DNA of 31,009 bases from a virus. Position 1 is the first letter of the stretch. Each line of letters opens with the position of its first letter. A program made the position numbers and the translations under genes. Positions 3,473-31,009 of this stretch are shown here, in pieces. Under the pieces are notes generated by a model. It saw only the letters and a program-made list of their open reading frames with translations. It was not told the DNA's origin and searched no databases. The stretch is from the IMG/VR virus record IMGVR_UViG_3300034736_000139, positions 1 to 31,009 of that record, one strand, 5' to 3'.

Positions 3473-6400
3473 TTAATTAATTTTGTACCTGTTATAAATT
3501 ATTTTTTTACCATTGGTTGTTGTTTTAACAACCTGCATTGCACCATCAATAATGCGTTCCAATTCAATATTTGAAACAGGTTTGTTTTTAATGGTTTTTT
3601 CCAATGATTCTAAACGTTCAACAACACGTTCATCAGATTTCGCAATTATTGTTTGATGTATTGCAGGATCAATCACACCTGTTTGATGCCTCAATGCCAG
3701 TTTTGCCAAATCTTCATTGCTAATATTACCAACCATTGCGTTTTGTTTCTTTGTCAAAACACGTTCATTTGGATGCAAAATTGCATGAAAACCACCCCTG
3801 CCATCAACACCTGATCCATTTTTGCCTGTATCCTCAATCCCATCCTCAAAAAACGGTAAATTCTGCACAAATTGTGTTAATAGTGTAATATCAGTGAATG
3901 TTTTTAACAATGGATTTTCAACATCGGGATCCTCACTGTTTCGCAAATATGCCTGCAATGCATCAGATGCCAATGCAATACGTTGTTTGCGTTTTTCCAT
4001 TTGTTCTTTTTTCCTGTTACTTTCAGCAATCAATTTTGCCTCTGTTGCCAATGATTGTTGGGCCTGAATGTTACCATTTTTTGCCAATTCCTGATATGTA
4101 TTATATCGTTCCTGTGCTTTGTTTATTTCCTCATCAATTTTGGAAATCCTTTTATCTGCAAAAAAGTTAAACGCATCAGTTAATGATTGAATAATACTGA
4201 TTTGATCCGCCAATAAATCTTTTTGTGATGTTAAAACTGCCTTATTTTCATCATCAACATTTTTGCGTTTTAATTTATTTAATTCAATTTCAAGATCCAA
4301 TGTATCTTTGCCATATTTTTTGTATTGCAAAATGCGTTCTTCTAATATTTTTATATTAAAATCTTTCATTTCCTTTGCAATATCTTCATCAGATTTTTTG
4401 GATTCCAGTAAACTATTTTCAAAACTTTTTACCCTGCGTTCCTGTATTGCATCATATGCCACCAAACGCAATTCATCAACTTCATTTAATTTTTCATTTA
4501 CTGATGTATTAATTTCAACAATTTTATCCGCACTTTCTTGTTCAACAACGGCAATTTGTTTATTTAAAACTTTGCGGTTTGCAATTTCCTCTGTTACCAA
4601 ATCCGCCTGCATTTCTTTTAAATTTGCATCTAATTTTGCACGTTCTTTTTTGGTTAATTTATTGTTTTCATTTTTCTTTTTAAACTCTTTATTTAACGCA
4701 TTGTTTAACAACACAAAACGTTCATTATGTTTATTTGTTAAAACACGTATTTCCTCATCCGCATCCGCCTGTACATCATCCTTTTGTTTTTGGCCTGATA
4801 AACCAATTAACGCATTAACATCCGTTAAATCAACTGTTTGCCCTCTCTCAATACGTAAATCAATAATTTCCAATTCCTTTTCAATCAATTTATCTAATTC
4901 AGCAATTTCACGTTCACGTGCAGAATCCTGCAATCCTGCATTCATTGCCCTGATTGATTCACGTACTTTTAAAATTTCTTTGTACAAATCCAATTGATCA
5001 CGCAAATCAACGTTTATTGGTGAACGTTTTGTTTTTGTTGGTGTTGGTGTTGTTGTTGTTGTTGTTGTTGTGCCACCTGCAACTGCGGTAACTGCATTTG
5101 CCTGCATCATTGCAACCAGTGATGTTTTTATAACTCCTTTTTGTGCGTTTAATGCTTTTAAAACTTTGTCATTTTCAACCGCCTGCCTTGCCAAAACTCC
5201 TTTTGTACCCTCATAATTTCCAAACCCCTGCAAAAATTCTGTAAATGCATTTTGGCCCCATGCGTTTTCAATACGTGCCTGCAATCCCAATTGTTCCGCC
5301 TCTAATTTTGCAATTTCACCTGCAATTACTCCAAATTGCGTGCGTTTTTCTTCTAACATTATTTTATCCTCAATATTTTTTAAAATATCCTTTTGTACTT
5401 TGTCCAACTCTTTTAAAAACTTTGTTTCATCCTGTATGTTGGTTAATGTTGTGCCGTATTTTTTATTTAAATCAGTAATTAATTTTTCACGTTCACCATT
5501 TGTTTTGTTTGCACCTTTGATTGCAGTAACCAAAACATCCAATTGATCTGATTCCTGTGCCATTTTAACTGCGGAATCCGTTGATGATTGTTGCAATCTT
5601 TCATTTATTTTTTCTAATTGATCACCTGCGGTATTAACAATTGTGAATGCCTCATATAATTTGTACAGGGCCAATATTATCAAACCAAACGCATTTGCCA
5701 TTAATGCTTTGCCCAGTGATGCAAATGCGGTTTTAAGGCCATTCACACCTGCACGTGCTACAAATAAACCTTTTGCCATCAAACCTGATTGTGTGCCTGC
5801 CATTGCCATTGTTGATCCCATTAAACGTGTTGCACCTGCGGATAAACCAACAACAATTTTGTATTGTATCCATGCCTTTGTTAAACCAACAACAACATCC
5901 AATATTGTTTCCAAATTATCTGCCAAAAATTTTATACCAACTTTTAAAATATCACCAACACCGCCTGCCTCATTTGCTTTTAAAATGTAACCATCCCATG
6001 CGGATGTTAATAAATCCAATGATCCGCCCAACGTATTCAATTGCATATCTGCCATGATCTGTGTTGCACCTGCGGAATCATACAATGCATTTGTTAATGT
6101 TTCAACATTGTATGTGTTTGATGCCAATACTGTACCAATTGTTGCACCCCTTTTACCGAATAATTCCAATGCGGTTGCGTTTTTATTTGTACTGTTTTGA
6201 ATCAGGCCCATTGCCTCATCAAATGTCATTCCTGATTTGGTTAATTCCAAAAATACATTACGCAATCCTGTTCCTGCGGTTGATGCATCAATACCGTTAT
6301 CGGTTAATGTACCCAGTAATGCGGTTGTTTCCTCAATATTTAACCCTGCACTTTTGGCAACTGGTGCCACATTACCCATTGCCGTACTGAATTTCTGCAT

Positions 6401-7468
6401 ATCCAATGATGAACTGGAAAATGATTTACTCATTACATCAGTTACACGTGCGGTTTGTTCTGTTGATAAACCAAATGCACGAACTGTTGCACCAACAACT
6501 GTTGCGGATTCTGCCAAATCTGTGCCTGTTGCACTTGCCAAATCCAATGTTGCTTTTGTTACGTTTGATATTTCAGATTGTGAAAAACCCAATTTTGCAA
6601 ATTCTGTTTGCAGATTTGAAACCTCTGTTGCGGTAAAACGTGTTGTGGATCCATACTTCATTGCATCATCCGTTAAACCTCGCATGCCCTCACGTGTAAC
6701 ACCCAAAACAGATGCCAAATTTGCACTTGCCTGATCAAATTCCTTTACTGTTTCAAATACATTACGTATTATCATTGCACCGCCCATTGCGAGGCCCAAA
6801 GATGCAAACGCACCTGATAATTTACCCAATGCACCCCTGTAATTTCCAACATTTCGGAAATTATCACCAACAGTTTTATCCAATTTTTTCAATTGTTTAT
6901 CACCTGAACGTGCGGATCTTGTTACTTTATCAAACTGCATTTGCAATTTTCTGTACTCTTTTGTGTTCTTTTTACCTGCCTGTTCTAATTTTAACAATTC
7001 TGCACCTAAACGTTTGGATTCATTTTTTTGATCACGTGTTGCCTTTACAAGTTTTTTGTACGCATTTGTTTCCTGATCCAGTAACTTTTTTTGCCTCTGT
7101 GATTGTTTCAACAAACGTTCCTTTTCTTGTGATTCCATTTTGGATGTACGAATTTTATCCTGTTGCAACCGTTCCAATTCACGTTCCGCCTGTATCTGTG
7201 CCTTTACGGCCTGTGATTTTGCTTTATCAACCTGCACTGATTGTTTCATTGTGGCATCTGCCTGTGCAACGGCTTTGCTCATTTTATTGATGCCCTCTGT
7301 TGATTTTTTCAATGATGAATTTAACGTTTTGGATATTGTTGTTGCGGTTTTTTTCAACCCAACATTCATTTTATCCAATTCAGTTAATGTTTTTTTTGCG
7401 GAATCCCTGATTTCTTTGTACAAATCTGATTCTGCAATATCACTCCTTTTTATTTGCCCACTTGCCAT
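3473..7468 (-). CDS. Tail tape measure protein
   Basis: At 1331 residues this is the longest gene. It sets tail length and travels in the tail tube. Residues 1-215 are a Lys/Gln-rich coiled coil. A Gly/Ala-rich hydrophobic patch follows (LSGAFASLGLAMGGAM). Residues about 240-405 match the phage tail tape measure core (PhageMin_Tail type), with FDQASANLASVLG, FTATEVSNLQTEFAKLGFS and a Gly-rich segment. A second hydrophobic segment lies near residues 590-606. A poly-Thr linker near 799-807 is encoded by a GTT-rich tract around 5049-5074 on the plus strand. Residues about 880-1190 are again coiled coil. At roughly 1.5 angstrom per residue a tail near 200 nm would be expected. The gene overlaps the preceding one by 29 bases. 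Confidence 0.95.
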   Translation of the reverse strand: MASGQIKRSDIAESDLYKEIRDSAKKTLTELDKMNVGLKKTATTISKTLNSSLKKSTEGINKMSKAVAQADATMKQSVQVDKAKSQAVKAQIQAERELERLQQDKIRTSKMESQEKERLLKQSQRQKKLLDQETNAYKKLVKATRDQKNESKRLGAELLKLEQAGKKNTKEYRKLQMQFDKVTRSARSGDKQLKKLDKTVGDNFRNVGNYRGALGKLSGAFASLGLAMGGAMIIRNVFETVKEFDQASANLASVLGVTREGMRGLTDDAMKYGSTTRFTATEVSNLQTEFAKLGFSQSEISNVTKATLDLASATGTDLAESATVVGATVRAFGLSTEQTARVTDVMSKSFSSSSLDMQKFSTAMGNVAPVAKSAGLNIEETTALLGTLTDNGIDASTAGTGLRNVFLELTKSGMTFDEAMGLIQNSTNKNATALELFGKRGATIGTVLASNTYNVETLTNALYDSAGATQIMADMQLNTLGGSLDLLTSAWDGYILKANEAGGVGDILKVGIKFLADNLETILDVVVGLTKAWIQYKIVVGLSAGATRLMGSTMAMAGTQSGLMAKGLFVARAGVNGLKTAFASLGKALMANAFGLIILALYKLYEAFTIVNTAGDQLEKINERLQQSSTDSAVKMAQESDQLDVLVTAIKGANKTNGEREKLITDLNKKYGTTLTNIQDETKFLKELDKVQKDILKNIEDKIMLEEKRTQFGVIAGEIAKLEAEQLGLQARIENAWGQNAFTEFLQGFGNYEGTKGVLARQAVENDKVLKALNAQKGVIKTSLVAMMQANAVTAVAGGTTTTTTTTPTPTKTKRSPINVDLRDQLDLYKEILKVRESIRAMNAGLQDSAREREIAELDKLIEKELEIIDLRIERGQTVDLTDVNALIGLSGQKQKDDVQADADEEIRVLTNKHNERFVLLNNALNKEFKKKNENNKLTKKERAKLDANLKEMQADLVTEEIANRKVLNKQIAVVEQESADKIVEINTSVNEKLNEVDELRLVAYDAIQERRVKSFENSLLESKKSDEDIAKEMKDFNIKILEERILQYKKYGKDTLDLEIELNKLKRKNVDDENKAVLTSQKDLLADQISIIQSLTDAFNFFADKRISKIDEEINKAQERYNTYQELAKNGNIQAQQSLATEAKLIAESNRKKEQMEKRKQRIALASDALQAYLRNSEDPDVENPLLKTFTDITLLTQFVQNLPFFEDGIEDTGKNGSGVDGRGGFHAILHPNERVLTKKQNAMVGNISNEDLAKLALRHQTGVIDPAIHQTIIAKSDERVVERLESLEKTIKNKPVSNIELERIIDGAMQVVKTTTNGKKIIYNRYKIN

Positions 7469-11133: not shown

Positions 11134-12372
11134 TTATTTTGTGATTGCAGTTAATGCCGTTGCAATATCAGTTACTTTCATAAATGCATCTTGATGTACC
11201 GCAGGCACAAAAAATTGGATTCTCTGTAATGCTTTTACAGTAACAATTTCATGCTCAAAATTATCATTGTTTTCATAACTGAAATCAACGGTTACACCTT
11301 GACGATCTAAAATTTGGCCCTTGCGTGAATCTAAAACGTAAAGTGAATTTGGTGAAACCAACGGTGATGTGATCACACGCATTCCATTCAACACTGAATC
11401 ACCTGATGCCACAAAGTTTGGTAAAAGGTAATCACCGTTTGCATTTTTTTGGTGCATGAATTTAACCCAATCATTGTAATTCATAATGATTGTATCTGCA
11501 TCATATGCCATTTCCTGCCCAAACGTGTATATCTGTGCTTTCATTGCACCTGTTAATTCTGCCAACGTTGCACTTGTAAATGCCCCAGTAAATGGTGCCA
11601 ATACATTTGCAGGATCAAATATTGATGCAATTGAATCAATCGAAACAATATCTGTTGCACCGTTTAAAACTGCACTATCTGCCTTTAATCTGATTGATGA
11701 TGATACAAGATTTTCAATTTCTGATGTTACAAAACTGTAATCATCCATCATATCAATACAAACATCAACATAATCACGAACTTTTGCAATCTGTACTGTT
11801 TTGGTTTGCCATTCAACTGTTGTATCAGTGTTATTTGTTGCACAATTTACAACAACACCTGCATCCCTTGTTACGGTTTTCTGCTCTCTGTACTTGATGT
11901 ACTCTGTTTCAACATTTGTTTTTCTGAACAAATCTGTAATTCTCGTTTCTGATCTGTATGGAATATCAAATGTTTCATTGATCAATTGGCCATAAACATC
12001 ACCACGTAATGCACCCAAATTAATTGGATCAATTTGTGCCTTTAATGATAAAGAAACAACACCTGATTTTTGTTTGATCAGTTTTTTTAATGCATCTGAT
12101 TTTTCAACAATCATATCCTTAATGGATTTTTTTGCCGTTGTTGCATTTGTTTTGTTGCCCTCTTTTAATGCATCAATTGTACTTTCAAGATCTGCAAATT
12201 TTTTCTGTAATTCATCAGATTTGTTTGCAGATTTCAATGCATCCAATTCATTTGATAATTCAGTTTTTAGTGTTGCAACATCATTTGATGATGCAAAACC
12301 GTTTGTTTTTTCAGCAATTTTTGCCTCAAATTTTTCAATCACCTGTTCAGGTGTTAATGGTGTATTTGCCAT
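11134..12372 (-). CDS. Major capsid protein, HK97 fold, with N-terminal scaffold domain
   Basis: A 412-residue protein. Residues 1 to about 100 form a charged coiled coil (DVATLKTELSNELDALKSA) like the HK97 delta domain, which acts as an internal scaffold. From about residue 115 the sequence looks like an HK97 capsid body: GALRGDVYGQLINETFDIPY, then a beta-hairpin E-loop region with VNCATNNTDTTVEWQTKTV, the spine helix SEIENLVSSSIRLKADSAVL, and P-domain strands near the C-terminus. The prohead protease gene lies 44 bases upstream, and cleavage between the coiled coil and body is expected. I see no clear HK97-type cross-linking Lys/Asn pair. Confidence 0.93.
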   Translation of the reverse strand: MANTPLTPEQVIEKFEAKIAEKTNGFASSNDVATLKTELSNELDALKSANKSDELQKKFADLESTIDALKEGNKTNATTAKKSIKDMIVEKSDALKKLIKQKSGVVSLSLKAQIDPINLGALRGDVYGQLINETFDIPYRSETRITDLFRKTNVETEYIKYREQKTVTRDAGVVVNCATNNTDTTVEWQTKTVQIAKVRDYVDVCIDMMDDYSFVTSEIENLVSSSIRLKADSAVLNGATDIVSIDSIASIFDPANVLAPFTGAFTSATLAELTGAMKAQIYTFGQEMAYDADTIIMNYNDWVKFMHQKNANGDYLLPNFVASGDSVLNGMRVITSPLVSPNSLYVLDSRKGQILDRQGVTVDFSYENNDNFEHEIVTVKALQRIQFFVPAVHQDAFMKVTDIATALTAITK

Positions 12373-12416: not shown

Positions 12417-13205
12417 TTAATTTGTTTTCACTTGAAAATAATCATCAAATCCACTCCAATTAAATGTTTGTTCAACTTTTTGTTTAACGGCCAATTGTTC
12501 TTTGTTGAACGGATCGGTGTTTGCAACATCAATTAAACGTGCATTTAAATATTTTAATTTCATTTCCAAATCATATAAACGTTCATCCGTACCTTTGCCA
12601 CTGGTAATTGCTTTCACAATGATGTTCATTTGATCAGTTAATGATTTTTGTATTGTTTGTTTTTCCTGTACTGTTTTAAAAACATCAATTGTGTTTGCAT
12701 ATTGGTTTGCACCAAATGTTACTGCGGATCCTTCCCACAATTTTAATTCCTTTATTTCAAAATATCCTGTTGATGGATCAGGATCATCCGCATCCTTTTT
12801 TTCAACCTCAACAAAATTTGTTTTATCTGCAATGTATTGAAATCCAATACTGTGTTCCGTAATAATTCCATCCTGATAATCACGCAATGCATCATCACCC
12901 TTTGATGATGTACCCAATTTACCAACTGCAAACAATCCTGTTTCATCCTCTTGTAATGATGTAAATGTACCAATTTGATGCTCCCAATCGTGATGCCTTA
13001 AAAATGCAATTTGCCTGTTGGATCCTGAATTTACACCCCTATCATTCAGGGATTTTTTAAATGCACCTTTGCGTATTAAATCATTATCTGAATCAATTGT
13101 ATCAAATACAGATAAATAAATTGCCACCTCACGTGCAGATAAATCAATATCTTTTATCTGTGATGTTGCCTGTTTGATGTTGTACGTTGAAAATGGTTTT
13201 TCCAT
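12417..13205 (-). CDS. Prohead maturation protease (HK97 family, U35)
   Basis: A 262-residue serine protease that cleaves the scaffold domain from the capsid during head maturation. The family pattern is clear: VFDTIDSDNDLIRKGAFKKS, a catalytic His in FLRHHDWEHQIGT (residues 71/72), the catalytic Ser in ITEHSIGF (Ser119), and the LWEGSAVTFGAN segment near residue 153. The C-terminal ~80 residues are helical and charged. It is the first gene of the minus-strand head operon. Its ATG is seven bases from a TAAATTTG promoter box that is back to back with the portal promoter, so the leader is very short. Confidence 0.92.
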   Translation of the reverse strand: MEKPFSTYNIKQATSQIKDIDLSAREVAIYLSVFDTIDSDNDLIRKGAFKKSLNDRGVNSGSNRQIAFLRHHDWEHQIGTFTSLQEDETGLFAVGKLGTSSKGDDALRDYQDGIITEHSIGFQYIADKTNFVEVEKKDADDPDPSTGYFEIKELKLWEGSAVTFGANQYANTIDVFKTVQEKQTIQKSLTDQMNIIVKAITSGKGTDERLYDLEMKLKYLNARLIDVANTDPFNKEQLAVKQKVEQTFNWSGFDDYFQVKTN

Positions 13206-13212
13206 AATTATG

Positions 13213-13220
13213 CAAATTTA
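13213..13220 (-). promoter_or_regulatory. -7 promoter box for the head operon
   Basis: Reads TAAATTTG on the minus strand, matching the Bacteroidota -7 element. Seven bases separate it from the protease ATG (13205). It shares the 63-bp divergent intergenic region with the portal promoter box at 13236-13243. Confidence 0.6.
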
Positions 13221-13223
13221 TAT

Positions 13224-13245
13224 AACAAAATTAGTTAAATTTGTT
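13224..13245. promoter_or_regulatory. Imperfect palindrome between divergent late promoters
   Basis: Arms AACAAAATTA (13224-13233) and TAAATTTGTT (13236-13245) pair at 9 of 10 positions around GT. The site covers the portal -7 box and the upstream side of the head-operon promoter, so a bound protein could control both directions. The half-site ACAAAAT...ATTTGT resembles the early palindrome at 20609-20631 but with wider spacing. Confidence 0.4.
13236..13243 (+). promoter_or_regulatory. -7 promoter box for the portal gene
   Basis: TAAATTTG on the plus strand, 25 bases before the portal ATG at 13269, leaving a leader of about 20 nt that ends in an A-rich run. This is the only plausible plus-strand promoter I see, and it is needed because the portal is the only plus-strand gene. 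Confidence 0.6.
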
Positions 13246-13268
13246 CAAATATATTAAAAAAAAACATC

Positions 13269-14465
13269 ATGGCAAACGATTTTTGGACTTCAATATTTGG
13301 ATGGTCTAACCAAAACAGTGATAAATTTATGCAATACCTGAACAATAACCAACAAAGTTATTACGGTACAAAGGATGCGGTTTGGGTAGATACCAACAAA
13401 CCATTTGAACTGTATTTGCAGGTGCCTGAATTAAGAACTGTAATTGATAAACGTGCATCAATGATGGCATCAGGATTGCCAGTTTTAAAAAATTCAGATG
13501 GTGAAATTGTTACTGATCATCAATGGGTACAGGATTTAATTGCAAAACCAAACCCAACACAATCATGGTCTGATGTTATTTATTCACTTTCAGTTAATGA
13601 TGGATTGTTTGCAAATGCATTTGCATATTGCCCAAAACGTTCATTTGATATACGTAATTTAATTGTGCCATTGCCATCATCAAAAGTTAAATTAAAACTT
13701 TCAGGCCGTTATTTAGATCAAATGGAAACAGGCGGAATGATCGAAAATTATCAGTTTTATTATGATGGTAAAAAATATGAAACAATTGAAATTGATGATA
13801 TGGTTTACATCAATACACCTGATGGTATTCATTTGGTGAATCCACGCAACAGGATTGAAACCCTGCGTTATCCATTATCAAACATCATTGCACAGTACAA
13901 AAAACGTAATGTGTTATTAGAAAATTTATCTGCAATTGGTATTTTATCATCAAATCAATCAGATCTTGGCGGATCATTACCAATGGATCCCAAAGAAAAA
14001 CGACAAATACAACAGGATTGGATAAAACGTAATTCAGATCAGATTGTAATTACTGAATCAAATGTTGATTGGACTCCAATGTCATATCCAACAAAACAAC
14101 TGATGTTATTTGAGGAACTGGATGCAGATAAAATGGCAATCATTGATGCGTATGGTTTATCACAATACCTGTTTGCATCATCAAAAGGTGCAACGTTTAC
14201 CAATGTTTTTGAAGGTATGCGTATGACCTATCAGGATACAATTATACCTGAAACAGATCAATTGTATGCAACACTTTCACATCAATTGGGCCTAACAGAT
14301 CAGGGATTGAAATTGTGTGCAGATTTTTCACATGTTGCCGTACTTCAAAAGGATCAGGTTTTGCAATCTGATGCAATGGATAAACGTGCAAATGCAGTTT
14401 TAAAAATAATTCAATCAGGTGTTGAATTATCTGATGATGAAAAACGTGCGTTGTTGGGCATTTAA
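13269..14465 (+). CDS. Portal protein (HK97 type)
   Basis: A 398-residue portal monomer that would form the dodecameric DNA channel at the capsid vertex. Family features are ELRTVIDKRASMMASGLPV near residues 54-72, VQDLIAKPNPTQSWSDVIYS near residue 90, the DGIHLVNPRNRIETLRYPLSN region with helix NIIAQYKKRNVLLENLSAIG, and the C-terminal TFTNVFEGMRMTYQDTIIPE segment. It is followed 9 bases later by the convergent end of a small minus-strand gene. It is the sole plus-strand gene in the genome, although neighbours TerL and prohead protease are its normal operon partners on one strand. Codon use (TCA, ACA, GCA, CGT) matches the rest of the genome, so a local inversion is more likely than recent import. 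Confidence 0.93.
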   Translation: MANDFWTSIFGWSNQNSDKFMQYLNNNQQSYYGTKDAVWVDTNKPFELYLQVPELRTVIDKRASMMASGLPVLKNSDGEIVTDHQWVQDLIAKPNPTQSWSDVIYSLSVNDGLFANAFAYCPKRSFDIRNLIVPLPSSKVKLKLSGRYLDQMETGGMIENYQFYYDGKKYETIEIDDMVYINTPDGIHLVNPRNRIETLRYPLSNIIAQYKKRNVLLENLSAIGILSSNQSDLGGSLPMDPKEKRQIQQDWIKRNSDQIVITESNVDWTPMSYPTKQLMLFEELDADKMAIIDAYGLSQYLFASSKGATFTNVFEGMRMTYQDTIIPETDQLYATLSHQLGLTDQGLKLCADFSHVAVLQKDQVLQSDAMDKRANAVLKIIQSGVELSDDEKRALLGI

Positions 14466-14474
14466 ATACGGTTA

Positions 14475-14594
14475 TTAAAATTTACCCCAACCTGAATGTA
14501 TCATTGATTTTATGCGTTCCTGTTCAATGTACATCATGTACAAATGAAAACGTTTAAATGCCTGAATAACTTTATTTATTTGTTTTCCTTTCAT
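14475..14594 (-). CDS. Small basic protein convergent with the portal gene
   Basis: A 39-residue reading frame from ATG 14594 (MKGKQINKVIQAFKRFHLYM) to TAA 14477-14475, ending IHSGWGKF. It is preceded by AAAGGAAAG, one of the few purine-rich ribosome-site candidates in this genome. The sequence is basic and amphipathic, with no recognised family. An upstream ATG at the next AAAGGAAA repeat stops after four codons, so 14594 is the start. It fills the gap between portal and the 58-residue membrane protein. Support is the ribosome site, clean frame and lack of any other feature here; it could still be spurious. Confidence 0.5.
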   Translation of the reverse strand: MKGKQINKVIQAFKRFHLYMMYIEQERIKSMIHSGWGKF

Positions 14595-14616: not shown

Positions 14617-14661
14617 GTTGAATCATGTTAAATTATGTTCAACACATGTTAAACACATGTT
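14617..14661. repeat. Helically phased ATGTT repeats with a palindrome
   Basis: ATGTT occurs four times at 14625, 14635, 14646 and 14657, spaced 10, 11 and 11 bases, within an AT-rich intergenic stretch. It includes the imperfect palindrome TTCAACA (14638-14644) CA TGTTAAA (14647-14653). The same palindrome type occurs twice at 22885-22921 in the replication initiator gene. Phased repeats of this kind are typical of protein binding sites such as operators or origin iterons. Confidence 0.5.
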
Positions 14662-14836
14662 ATTTATTTAAATCAAAAATCTGTGGTTGTTGAACATTCA
14701 GTGTATCATGTACATTGTTTTTGTTTACTGGTTTACACTGATCAATAATGTAATTAAATTGAATTAACAACAGGATCATGCATATTGCAAATGCCAACAT
14801 TAACCAATGCACTGGATGCCATTTTTGTTTTATCAT
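14660..14836 (-). CDS. Small single-pass membrane protein
   Basis: A 58-residue protein from ATG 14836 (MIKQKWHPVHWLMLAFAICM). One transmembrane helix spans residues about 10-31, followed by a polar tail with one Cys (IDQCKPVNKNN). The frame is open further upstream through the hairpin at 14860-14883 into the end of TerL (to 15016), but that region would be untranslated after the terminator, so I choose 14836. No family is recognised. Size and topology fit a pinholin, an inner-membrane lysis accessory or a superinfection factor; none can be preferred. Confidence 0.55.
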   Translation of the reverse strand: MIKQKWHPVHWLMLAFAICMILLLIQFNYIIDQCKPVNKNNVHDTLNVQQPQIFDLNK

Positions 14837-14854
14837 GGCATAAATATAATCAAA

Positions 14855-14890
14855 AAAAAATGCAGGTATTTTCCAACCTGCATAAAAAAC
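14855..14890 (-). terminator. Terminator hairpin downstream of TerL
   Basis: A perfect 8-bp stem, ATGCAGGT (14860-14867) with ACCTGCAT (14876-14883), 8-nt loop. On the minus transcript it is followed by nine U, and on the plus strand by ATAAAAAAC. It lies about 80 bases past the TerL stop, so it probably ends the packaging transcript. Confidence 0.85.
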
Positions 14891-14939
14891 ACCATGATCA
14901 CTATTAATAAACTGATGGTTTTTTAAAACCTTAATGTTA

Positions 14940-14947
14940 CAAATATA
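14940..14947 (-). promoter_or_regulatory. Possible -7 box just after TerL
   Basis: Reads TATATTTG on the minus strand, matching TAnnTTTG. A start near 14935 would give an RNA of about 75-80 nt that ends at the strong hairpin at 14855-14890, with no reading frame of note. It could be a small RNA gene or a chance match in AT-rich sequence. Confidence 0.35.
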
Positions 14948-14961
14948 ACAATTCAGGCCCT

Positions 14962-16317
14962 TTAACGTAAATGTTTGAACATTGATTGTATAAACATTGA
15001 TAAACCTGCAATACAATCAGGTGCATCATCATTTTTATTTTTACCCTCTTTACTAAATGATAAAATATTATCAATAAACCTGATTGATTGTGGCACATCA
15101 TAACGCACAAAATTAAATCTATTTAACACAAATGCGGAATGCATAATGATTCGTGTTATTTTATTCTGTGTATTTGCCACCTGTAATATTCGTGTGTTGG
15201 TATTGCGTTGTAATTCACGTGCAAACATTGCACCCATACTGTTTGATTCAACACGGCAATAATTGGCATTCCATTTATCCAACAGGGATGCAACCATTGG
15301 TATTGTAACATCCGTGTTTGATCGGTCAAATACATAATCAACAATGTACACCTGATCACCTACAATGGCCCCAATGGCACATGCAGTGTAATCATTTCCT
15401 GTATCTGAAACATCAACATATCCAATGCAACCCTCAATTTTATCCTTTATTTCATCCAATTCATCAGGATCCACAATGTTTATTTCACCAAATAACATTC
15501 CTTTCAGATCCATTGGTTGTTGTTGGTATTCTGCCAACCAAATTTCCTTTGCGGTTTTTTTTCTTTTATCAATGTATTCATCTGTACTCATAACCGCACT
15601 GCAAAATGATTGATCATTTTCATCCAATGCCTGTACCATAATTGATTTATCATATGCACCCTGTGCCATTTGATACCCAATTACATCATTAACAACCCAA
15701 CGTGTGCCAATATCAATGCGTTTACATCCTGTTTCAAACCGTGAATCATGTGTTGCCTGTTTCCACTGGATCACACGTGCATTCATATTATCATTCATGG
15801 CATCATCAATACCCCTGTATAGATCATCCGTAATGGCAACCATTGATGCACCAAATCCAATGATTGTTCCGCCAACACCTGCACCGAAATAACCAACCTG
15901 TTTTGAACTGTTGGTGTTCCATCCCTGCAAATTTGCTTTATCAGATGATAAACATACATCAGGAAATATTGTTGTGAATTTTTCTGATTTCACAATATCA
16001 CGTACATCATATGAAAATTTTGTGTACAGTGTTGCCGTGCATGTGTTACGCATTACTGATTCTGTTGGATGATTACCCAACACCCATGCACAGTAAATTG
16101 ATGTGATGTATGATTTTCCTGCACGTGGCGGTAATGAAACAGATAATGATTTAATTTTATCATCTGTAATATCCTGCATTGCATCCGCCACCTCATGCAA
16201 AAATTCACGTTCCGCAAAAAATTTAGGATCATAAAATTTGCAAAATTGCCAAAAATCACGTTTGCACAACTCATAATACAAATACAAATTTATTAAATCT
16301 GTTTTATTTTTTCCCAT
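14962..16317 (-). CDS. terL: Terminase large subunit
   Basis: A 451-residue DNA packaging motor and nuclease. The ATPase domain has Walker A LPPRAGKS (residues 62-69) and a Walker B-like MVAITDDL (159-166), a variant ending in Asp-Asp rather than Asp-Glu. The C-terminal RNase H-like nuclease has candidate metal ligands D302 (GYVDVSDTGND), E357 (RVESNSMG) and D434 (NDDAPDCIAG). The gene overlaps terS by 14 bases. Its length is usual for short large terminases of Bacteroidota siphophages. The packaging mode (cos or pac) cannot be read from sequence alone; apparent circularity is compatible with either. Confidence 0.95.
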   Translation of the reverse strand: MGKNKTDLINLYLYYELCKRDFWQFCKFYDPKFFAEREFLHEVADAMQDITDDKIKSLSVSLPPRAGKSYITSIYCAWVLGNHPTESVMRNTCTATLYTKFSYDVRDIVKSEKFTTIFPDVCLSSDKANLQGWNTNSSKQVGYFGAGVGGTIIGFGASMVAITDDLYRGIDDAMNDNMNARVIQWKQATHDSRFETGCKRIDIGTRWVVNDVIGYQMAQGAYDKSIMVQALDENDQSFCSAVMSTDEYIDKRKKTAKEIWLAEYQQQPMDLKGMLFGEINIVDPDELDEIKDKIEGCIGYVDVSDTGNDYTACAIGAIVGDQVYIVDYVFDRSNTDVTIPMVASLLDKWNANYCRVESNSMGAMFARELQRNTNTRILQVANTQNKITRIIMHSAFVLNRFNFVRYDVPQSIRFIDNILSFSKEGKNKNDDAPDCIAGLSMFIQSMFKHLR

Positions 16318-16747
16318 TTTTCAGGTGTTCACGTATTTCATCCGTTGTTAAATCAGAAAAATCAGGCCTGTTGGTTTGTAAATTAACATCCTGCCGTTCA
16401 ACATATCCACGTGATCGCATTTTACATTTCATATAAAAAATGGTTGCGGTTGTATTGCCATCTTTTATTTGATCGTGCAATTGTGATTCAACCATATCAT
16501 GTGCGTGTTCAGCAATATCAATTACCTGTTCAGCATAATGATCATCAGTTTTGATCCACTCGTAATGTGTTGATCTGTTTATACCAACTGCACTGCATGC
16601 GGTTGATATGATGCCCAATGATGCAATTAATGCCTCAATCATTGCACCCTTTTTTATAGTGTTGGATTTTGTTGCTTTTTTAACAACAGGTTTGGCCCTT
16701 TTTTTTGTGGGTTTTGCTTTTACTTTTGGTTTGGGTTTTATTGCCAT
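16304..16747 (-). CDS. terS: Terminase small subunit
   Basis: A 147-residue protein that recognises phage DNA for packaging. A strongly basic Lys/Pro-rich N-terminus (residues 1-33) is followed by a helix-turn-helix (IEALIASLGIISTACSAVGI then NRSTHYEWIKTDDHYAEQV), the homeodomain-like fold of small terminases. A helical oligomerisation region follows (AHDMVESQLHDQIKDGNTTA). The C-terminus (DLTTDEIREHLKNGKK) probably contacts TerL. It begins five bases after the stop of the 118-residue membrane protein and overlaps terL by 14 bases. Confidence 0.9.
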   Translation of the reverse strand: MAIKPKPKVKAKPTKKRAKPVVKKATKSNTIKKGAMIEALIASLGIISTACSAVGINRSTHYEWIKTDDHYAEQVIDIAEHAHDMVESQLHDQIKDGNTTATIFYMKCKMRSRGYVERQDVNLQTNRPDFSDLTTDEIREHLKNGKK

Positions 16748-28943: not shown

Positions 28944-29975
28944 TTAACCAATCACTTTAATTTGCCAATCAATTTGCCTCAATACAGATGATACCTGAAA
29001 AACACGGCCCTCAACATCATCTGAATGCCAACATTCCTGTTGAAACAATGGAATTGCACCCTTTGGTTGTGGCTCCTCATAATTTAAAATTGGCCTGATT
29101 GAAACGTTAAACCTCATATGATTGTTTTTGGCGGTAATTGCAGGCCAAATTTTATATTGTAACCCCACATTGTTCATGTTTTCAGTGAATGTTGGATAAT
29201 TTACAGTATTGGCAATTGATGCACTTGCAATAAATTCCCAACCTGCAACACCCATTGGTAATGGTAATAACTCAATAAACCAAAAACCATCAGGAATACT
29301 AAATTTAAATATAAAATAATCATTTTCAAAATAATCAACCGTATCAACATTCCATTGTTGTGCATTAATTTTTTCATTGTTTTGAAAATTAATTGAATTA
29401 TTCAATGTATTACGTACAATTTGGATACCATCACCAACCAAATCAATTGCACCTGTTAAACTTTCAACACTTGTTACACCTGTTTGCGGTGCATCAATCC
29501 ATTGGGCAAAACCTGCACCGTTTGTTGATAAAATTTGCCCTGTTGATCCATCTGCCAATGGCAATTTGTATTTATCATTTATTTTCAAATATCCACCCTC
29601 AATTGAAATAATAGGATTGTTGTTTGCAGTGTTTGCAATAACAAATGATGTAAATGAATCACCTGTTGGTACATTAATTTTAAAACATGTAGATTCAGTG
29701 TTTAATGCAGTAAATTCAAGAGTTTTGAAATCCAACATTTTAAAATAATGTGTACCTGCAACACCTCTGATTGTGCGATCACTGGTAACACTTGCATCAT
29801 CAGTGTAAATTGTTTTTACATTTGGTGCAGGTATTGATGCAATAATTCCTGCCTTTATTGTTGATCCCAATATTTTTTTTGATTCATAACCTGTACCGTT
29901 ATAAAAATCAATATCATAAAAATCATCATCATTAAATGTTTGTGCCTCGTTTTGATAATTGTGTATTTGTGCCAT
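28944..29975 (-). CDS. Tail fibre-like protein
   Basis: A 343-residue protein. The N-terminal ~110 residues may attach to the tail (MAQIHNYQNEAQTFNDDDFY). A short repeat-like segment, LPLADGSTGQILSTNGAGFAQW (near residue 137), is a motif often seen in fibre shafts of Bacteroidota phages. It is followed by a turn-rich stretch (VTSVESLTGAIDLVGDGIQI) and a C-terminal beta-rich domain of about 150 residues that could be the receptor-binding tip. It starts 12 bases after the 774-residue tail gene. Confidence 0.75.
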   Translation of the reverse strand: MAQIHNYQNEAQTFNDDDFYDIDFYNGTGYESKKILGSTIKAGIIASIPAPNVKTIYTDDASVTSDRTIRGVAGTHYFKMLDFKTLEFTALNTESTCFKINVPTGDSFTSFVIANTANNNPIISIEGGYLKINDKYKLPLADGSTGQILSTNGAGFAQWIDAPQTGVTSVESLTGAIDLVGDGIQIVRNTLNNSINFQNNEKINAQQWNVDTVDYFENDYFIFKFSIPDGFWFIELLPLPMGVAGWEFIASASIANTVNYPTFTENMNNVGLQYKIWPAITAKNNHMRFNVSIRPILNYEEPQPKGAIPLFQQECWHSDDVEGRVFQVSSVLRQIDWQIKVIG

Positions 29976-29987
29976 AATTTTATTTTT

Positions 29988-31009
29988 TTATTGTGCTAAT
30001 GTTTTTATTGCGGTTAATAAACCACTGGTTGTTTTTAAAACTCCATCCGTTGTGCGTTTACTGTTGGTGTTTAATGTTATTGGGCATCCTTTTATTTTTG
30101 TTGTAAATTTAGCACCATTTGCCAAATTAATTATATCAGGATTAAAAAAACATTCAATTTGTGCCACATTTTGTGATGGATATGTTATTACCATCTGCAC
30201 ACCGTTAATTGGTCTTAATGGATTTGATAAATCATTATCAAATGGTAAAACTGAACTGCATATTGTACGTGCGGTTGATTCAAATGGCTCAACAGTAATC
30301 ATGGCCCATGTATCATTTGGATCCCATGCCTGCCCATTATTAATGGTATGTGTTGCCACAATACGCATTGTTTCACCAATTGCAATAACCTGTACATTTT
30401 GCCCTGTGGATTCAATAAACATTTGAATATCCTGATCAATAACCGTTGATGAATCATACGGTAAATCACGTATTACATTACTGTTAATAAATGCCAATCC
30501 ATCTTTTATCAGTGATATTTTAAAACGTATTTCCCATGCAGGAATATCATCATATTGCTCCCAATTTCTGTTTTGTGTTGGATAAAAATCTGTTGATGCA
30601 TTTTGTTGTTGCAACCAATATTGCCAGTTTAATAAAAATGGGTAATAAACAGATACACCATATTGCGTTGCCGTATCCATTGATGGTACACGTTTAAATA
30701 ATGCGTTTATTTTTGCACTGTTTGATGGTAATGTTGATACAATTGGCAATGTTTGATTGATTAAATATTGCCCTGCATTATTTATTTGAATACCGCCAAA
30801 TGAAAACTGTGATGATTGTAATGCAAAATCATCCTGTGATGTGCCGTTGAAAACTTCCATTTCCATTGTTAAACGTTCATAAACCTGATTATTATCCAAT
30901 AAAAATGTACCATACCATGCACAATCATCCTCTGTATTTGCAACAAATCCCTGTTTTGATCCGCCAATTTGTGTGATATTTTGCCCATGATCTAAAAAAC
31001 CAAAATTGG
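29988..31009 (-). CDS. Tail protein, C-terminal part (5' end continues at base 1 side of the circle)
   Basis: The frame is open from base 31009 to the stop at 29988. Bases 30779-31009 duplicate 1-231, so the unique part is 29988-30778, which continues the gene starting at ATG 1534. The apparent Met at 30899 used by a simple start search is not a methionine codon (TTG, FLLDNNQ context) and is internal. The C-terminal region is beta-rich (LLNWQYWLQQQNASTDFYPT, WEIRFKISLIKDGLAFINSN) with no recognised family. See the entry at 1-1534 for the whole protein. Confidence 0.85.
   Translation of the reverse strand, partial: NFGFLDHGQNITQIGGSKQGFVANTEDDCAWYGTFLLDNNQVYERLTMEMEVFNGTSQDDFALQSSQFSFGGIQINNAGQYLINQTLPIVSTLPSNSAKINALFKRVPSMDTATQYGVSVYYPFLLNWQYWLQQQNASTDFYPTQNRNWEQYDDIPAWEIRFKISLIKDGLAFINSNVIRDLPYDSSTVIDQDIQMFIESTGQNVQVIAIGETMRIVATHTINNGQAWDPNDTWAMITVEPFESTARTICSSVLPFDNDLSNPLRPINGVQMVITYPSQNVAQIECFFNPDIINLANGAKFTTKIKGCPITLNTNSKRTTDGVLKTTSGLLTAIKTLAQ
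30779..31009. repeat. Terminal direct repeat, right copy
   Basis: A copy of bases 1-231 with one mismatch (T at 30906 against C at 128). It closes the genome into a 30,778-bp circle. The single silent difference suggests strain heterogeneity in the source or a base error. Confidence 0.95.

Follow-up and report, generated by a model that had tools for sequence, protein, structure and literature searches.

A portal gene inverted within the head module of an uncultured phage lineage, beside a palindromic candidate promoter

Head modules of described phages and of the window

Few parts of tailed phage genomes keep their gene order as well as the head and packaging module, which is commonly regarded as a single operon. 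The portal, the ring that admits DNA into the virus head, usually shares its strand with the large terminase subunit (TerL) and the prohead protease in HK97-fold modules, although this is no defining requirement of such modules. Among the phages of Flavobacteriia, the Forsetiviridae (Freya and Danklef), the Assiduviridae (phi19:1) and Muminvirus all have the order TerS-TerL-portal-protease-major capsid protein (MCP), with the portal co-directional with its neighbours. A different layout is found in phage P2, where the portal and TerL genes (QP) diverge from the scaffold and capsid genes (ONML), the late promoters pP and pO lie back to back and an annotated activator site is placed between them. 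Divergence of portal and capsid is thus already known, and P2 is a partial precedent for the arrangement described here.

With respect to promoters, two sets of published observations are relevant. The Bacteroidota -7 box has the consensus TAnnTTTG and lies at -12 to -5 (PMC9723704; PMC7366714 for the box), and the bidirectional promoters of Escherichia coli described by Warman, Grainger and colleagues use one -10 element for both directions, with start distances of 10, 18 or 23 bp (PMC12825309).

The window analysed here, the whole 31,009-nucleotide stretch of DNA, contains TerL, portal, prohead protease and an HK97-type MCP in the usual order, each identified by a family match (Table 1). This order is the same as in the flavobacterial phages named above, of which Freya, Danklef and phi19:1 have some of the nearest cultured portals (about 25-27% identity). 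The strands depart from the usual HK97-fold (Caudoviricetes) module: the portal is on the plus strand, whereas TerL and the protease are on the minus strand. The initial annotation of the sequence had claimed that the portal alone is flipped while the gene order is kept, and the family matches bear this out, since TerS and the MCP are on the minus strand as well. It had also assigned every other gene to the minus strand; four long plus-strand open reading frames that were compared with PHROG have no match there (Table 1), so that the portal is alone on the plus strand as far as this has been tested. Its remark that the portal ends nine bases from a small convergent gene was accurate too (portal stop at 14465, end of the 39-aa gene at 14475), and this small gene is conserved in relatives. 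Across the window the sign of the GC skew switches only over the portal gene.

The group to which this phage belongs is a large one and consists of uncultured viruses. Its host is probably a member of the Bacteroidota, as judged from the promoter type and the nearest cultured relatives; searches of bacterial genomes for relatives found none.

The likeness to P2 is that the portal is transcribed away from the scaffold/protease and capsid genes and that a shared site lies between the promoters. However, the P2 portal forms one operon with TerL, whereas the portal of the window is inverted by itself and converges on a TerL gene carried by the opposite strand. P2 was also absent from the relatives found by sequence. 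We found no description of a portal inverted alone, and repeatedly, between TerL and the protease in the part of the literature that could be searched. An essential gene in the middle of the module that has been flipped repeatedly in place amounts to a natural experiment on the need for portal-capsid co-transcription, and the 63-bp gap next to it offers a compact candidate bidirectional promoter for the Bacteroidota.

Table 1. Features of the head module in the window, and genes at the portal/TerL junction of relatives
Feature	Position	Strand	Remarks
MCP	11134..12372	-	Phage_capsid 8.9e-18
Prohead serine protease	12417..13205	-	Peptidase_S78 4.5e-19; divergent from portal
Protease-portal gap	13206-13268		63 bp
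Palindrome CAAAATTA-GT-TAAATTTG	13226..13243	.	18 bp; two back-to-back TAnnTTTG boxes, 2 bp apart; proposed bidirectional promoter
Predicted -7 box of protease/capsid operon, TAATTTTG	13226..13233	-	predicted +1 near 13221
Predicted -7 box of portal, TAAATTTG	13236..13243	+	predicted +1 near 13248
Portal	13269..14465	+	398 aa; PF04860 (Phage_portal) E=1.7e-26; phrog_2662/12; three PHROG portal families
39-aa gene	14475..14594	-	convergent with portal; conserved in L002, L005, L007, L010, L011
59-aa small gene, probably membrane	14660..14839	-	conserved in relatives, 31-100% identity; hydrophobic stretch judged by eye
Possible small RNA	14851-14947	-	between TerL and 59-aa gene
TerL	14962..16317	-	phrog_38 4e-74; convergent with portal
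TerS	16304..16747	-	phrog_4102 1.7e-7
Four long open reading frames	4263-4997, 6237-6734, 6712-7290, 29959-30426	+	no PHROG match; opposite minus-strand genes
Gene with SGGKTSSYMA motif	L005:5270-6112	-	about 280 aa
Gene with SGGKTSSYMA motif	L010:7578-8420	-	about 280 aa
Gene with SGGKTSSYMA motif	L011:8639-9511	-	about 280 aa
Unrelated gene at junction	L012:1702-2328	-	208 aa

Orientation of the portal among relatives

Comparison with related phages, which the initial annotation had suggested, gave the same inverted arrangement without exception: in 14 of 14 close relatives (58-100% portal identity) the portal is opposite to TerL, the protease and/or the MCP. These relatives were drawn from 14 different IMG/VR metagenome datasets, and such agreement excludes chance or an assembly error. 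Wider profile searches returned 256 portal matches, including repeated fetches of some contigs. They comprise 154 distinct portal DNA sequences, with an inverted portal in 64 and a co-directional one in 90, counts that reflect the reach of the searches and are no census. The directions of TerL, protease and MCP had zero disagreements in about 254 loci; the portal is therefore the only one of these genes that flips.

Both misassembly and a phase-variable switch had been raised at the outset. Nothing favours either of them but the oddity itself. No portal cluster at ≥93% identity mixes the two orientations, and the closest inverted/co-directional pair has only 81% protein identity; each lineage keeps one orientation, and over short times this does not change as it would with a phase switch. 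We found neither the near-identical genomes in both orientations nor the flanking repeats of a phase-variable cassette, and the statement in the initial annotation that inverted repeats do not flank the segment agrees with our search, which gave no convincing ones. Together with the agreement of the 14 independent datasets, this makes an assembly error or a phase-variable inversion extremely improbable, and we reject both as refuted for the lineage by its relatives.

Nearly all members of the window's clade are inverted on the portal tree, but the co-directional lineages L027 and L240 are nested inside it, as is a third, L264, in another branch. The nesting of L027 and L240 is repeated by both the TerL tree and the protease+MCP tree; that of L264, whose contig has no TerL, is repeated by the protease+MCP tree. 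Each of the three trees requires 3-4 orientation changes, and a single clade for all the inverted portals is rejected (AU p=1e-61). In the portal and TerL trees, two distant inverted relatives (L121 and L122) stand apart from the main group, on long branches that leave their exact placement unsure. The isolates of the outgroup (Polaribacter phages Freya and Danklef, Cellulophaga phi19:1 and Flavobacterium mumin) are co-directional, which makes the inversion the derived state; the unannotated gut records in which both the portal and a neighbour were found are co-directional as well. The ancestral state was most likely co-directional; the inversion arose at least twice and was followed by one or two reversions. 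The inverted orientation is old and inherited, and it has switched more than once in the course of evolution.

A horizontal swap of the whole head module was considered as the source of the co-directional cases, but is not favoured because the TerL and protease+MCP trees place L027 and L240 as the portal tree does. Strand composition was also tried as a clock for the flip; the 4-fold sites of the portal resemble the coding strand of other genes and hence carry no dating signal.

The palindrome between portal and protease

The initial annotation had given the portal a promoter of its own, back to back with that of the head operon. Both starts are indeed preceded by a match to the Bacteroidota -7 box (Table 1), and comparison among lineages supports this pair strongly. 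A TAnnTTTG box is found 5' of the portal in 28 of 37 inverted lineages (shuffle mean 4.2) and in 28 of 33 co-directional ones (shuffle 2.5), so that in both orientations the portal usually comes with a predicted promoter of its own. The protease behaves differently: 28 of the 35 inverted lineages have a box 5' of it, but only 7 of 33 co-directional ones (Fisher p=2e-6, a generous value since the lineages are related). All three reverted lineages have the protease box, vs 4/30 of the basal co-directional lineages (p=0.006), as would be expected of descendants of inverted ancestors. A scan for sigma-70 promoters gave nothing above shuffles, as expected with a Bacteroidota-type phage.

The gap of the inverted lineages follows the pattern CAAAnnTA-nn-TAnnTTTG, with a spacing of exactly 2 bp in most of them. 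The palindrome is exact in 18 of 35 inverted lineages and has at most one mismatch in 24 of 35; shuffled gaps gave 0.01 exact palindromes and 0.07 with one mismatch, and there is no other copy in 547 kb of representative loci. Variation is confined almost wholly to the two centre bases and the flanks, with little or none in the columns of the boxes, but twelve palindrome columns served as the search pattern and only the remaining columns are independent evidence; conservation within one clade also partly reflects descent. A scan of viral contigs found at least 119 stretches with the palindrome. Among the matches listed, 5 of the 6 stretches carrying this portal family have it at the portal-protease junction, and just one of the 113 others has it in a divergent gap; on these matches it is peculiar to the portal-protease gene pair and is no common bidirectional promoter.

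As in the bidirectional promoters of prokaryotes, core elements for both strands stand in one short symmetric site, here a predicted pseudo-symmetric core promoter read both ways. It is not of the E. coli type, in which the -10 element is shared and the starts are separated by 10, 18 or 23 bp; here there are two complete, non-overlapping TAnnTTTG boxes and predicted starts about 27 bp apart.

The reading that we favour, with a confidence a little above even, is that the portal is a self-promoted cassette whose inversion would have been tolerated because a compact, symmetric, divergent promoter could serve both the portal and the capsid operon. Its observed parts are the orientation and its conservation, the repeated changes of state and the boxes with their fixed spacing. 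The portal would be a self-contained expression cassette with its own promoter, and in the large lineage of the window this cassette would have been turned round without leaving its place between TerL and the protease. The portal and the protease-capsid operon would then start back to back, and one element, in which 2 bp separate two -7 boxes for the housekeeping sigma factor of the Bacteroidota, would serve both starts: RNA polymerase bound in one direction would produce portal mRNA and, bound in the other, protease-capsid mRNA. We infer that the boxes are active promoters. With a symmetric promoter, expression would hardly depend on which way the portal points; this could ease flips, so that the gene might turn again, and further flips are seen, comprising at least one inversion and one or two reversions. 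However, the basal co-directional lineages have one box and lack the full palindrome, so that the symmetry may have followed from the flip instead of having caused it.

A likely effect would be that the level of portal mRNA is set separately from that of capsid mRNA. Virions contain 12 portal subunits vs hundreds of capsid subunits, and the earlier suggestion that the inversion uncouples portal dose from capsid dose is possible and would fit separate transcription units. One could go further and propose that the twin -7-box promoter, being symmetric, lets an essential head gene change its direction reversibly in evolution, and that competition for RNA polymerase at this site sets the portal:capsid mRNA ratio. 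If true, gene orientation would be a tunable part of virion stoichiometry, but we regard this as speculative and improbable. The E. coli bidirectional promoters that have been tested are too weak for competition between directions (PMC12825309), which calls for caution with regard to polymerase competition.

The symmetry of the site can also be explained in another way. The palindrome could be bound by a dimeric phage regulator, either a repressor or a late activator, and by overlapping two separate promoters could place both under its control. The perfect dyad and the fixed spacing speak for this reading, and P2 has its annotated activator site between the divergent portal-terminase and capsid promoters. 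In L046, L062, L072 and L249 both outer G/C have been lost symmetrically (TAAAAATACGTAATTTTA), a change that suits a regulator palindrome as well as it suits two -7 boxes. In the gaps of L062 and L249 the core TACGTA also recurs in steps of 10 bp (CAAATTTACGTAAAAATACGTAATTTTA), an arrangement that resembles tandem half-sites for a binding protein. However, the palindrome is unique in the window and the other late genes are without it. Moreover, conservation covers exactly the columns of TAnnTTTG, and the central two bases are free to vary. On balance we consider a regulator site unlikely.

Perhaps, instead, the inversion is a neutral accident: illegitimate recombination would have turned the gene around, promoters would have been acquired on each side from need, and the arrangement would have persisted by descent, with no dosage role and no help from symmetry. 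Most of the inverted lineages do belong to one clade, and repeats or a recombinase at the ends of the segment were not found. The second inverted lineage (L121, L122) has divergent boxes and manages without the palindrome. On the other hand, the state has changed repeatedly, involving always exactly the portal and never another head gene, and the palindrome is strongly constrained while its flanks drift. A purely neutral origin therefore seems rather doubtful to us.

The portal/TerL junction

The other end of the inverted gene has its own peculiarities. In relatives, accessory genes have been inserted where portal and TerL converge (Table 1). Three relatives carry there a protein with an SGGKTSSYMA motif that presumably resembles PAPS reductase-type enzymes, L012 has an unrelated gene at the same place, and L034, L036 and L039 have about 3 kb at the junction. 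In the inverted lineages L043, L045, L047, L048 and L050, the 3' ends of portal and TerL overlap convergently, by up to about 20 bases, so that their transcripts would be mutually antisense.

The junction of the window may also encode a small RNA (Table 1). The candidate has a TAnnTTTG box, a hairpin and a strong terminator hairpin with a T run; a search of Rfam with it gave no match. It is conserved in L002, L005, L007, L008, L010 and L011, and in the last of these a few paired changes keep the first hairpin.
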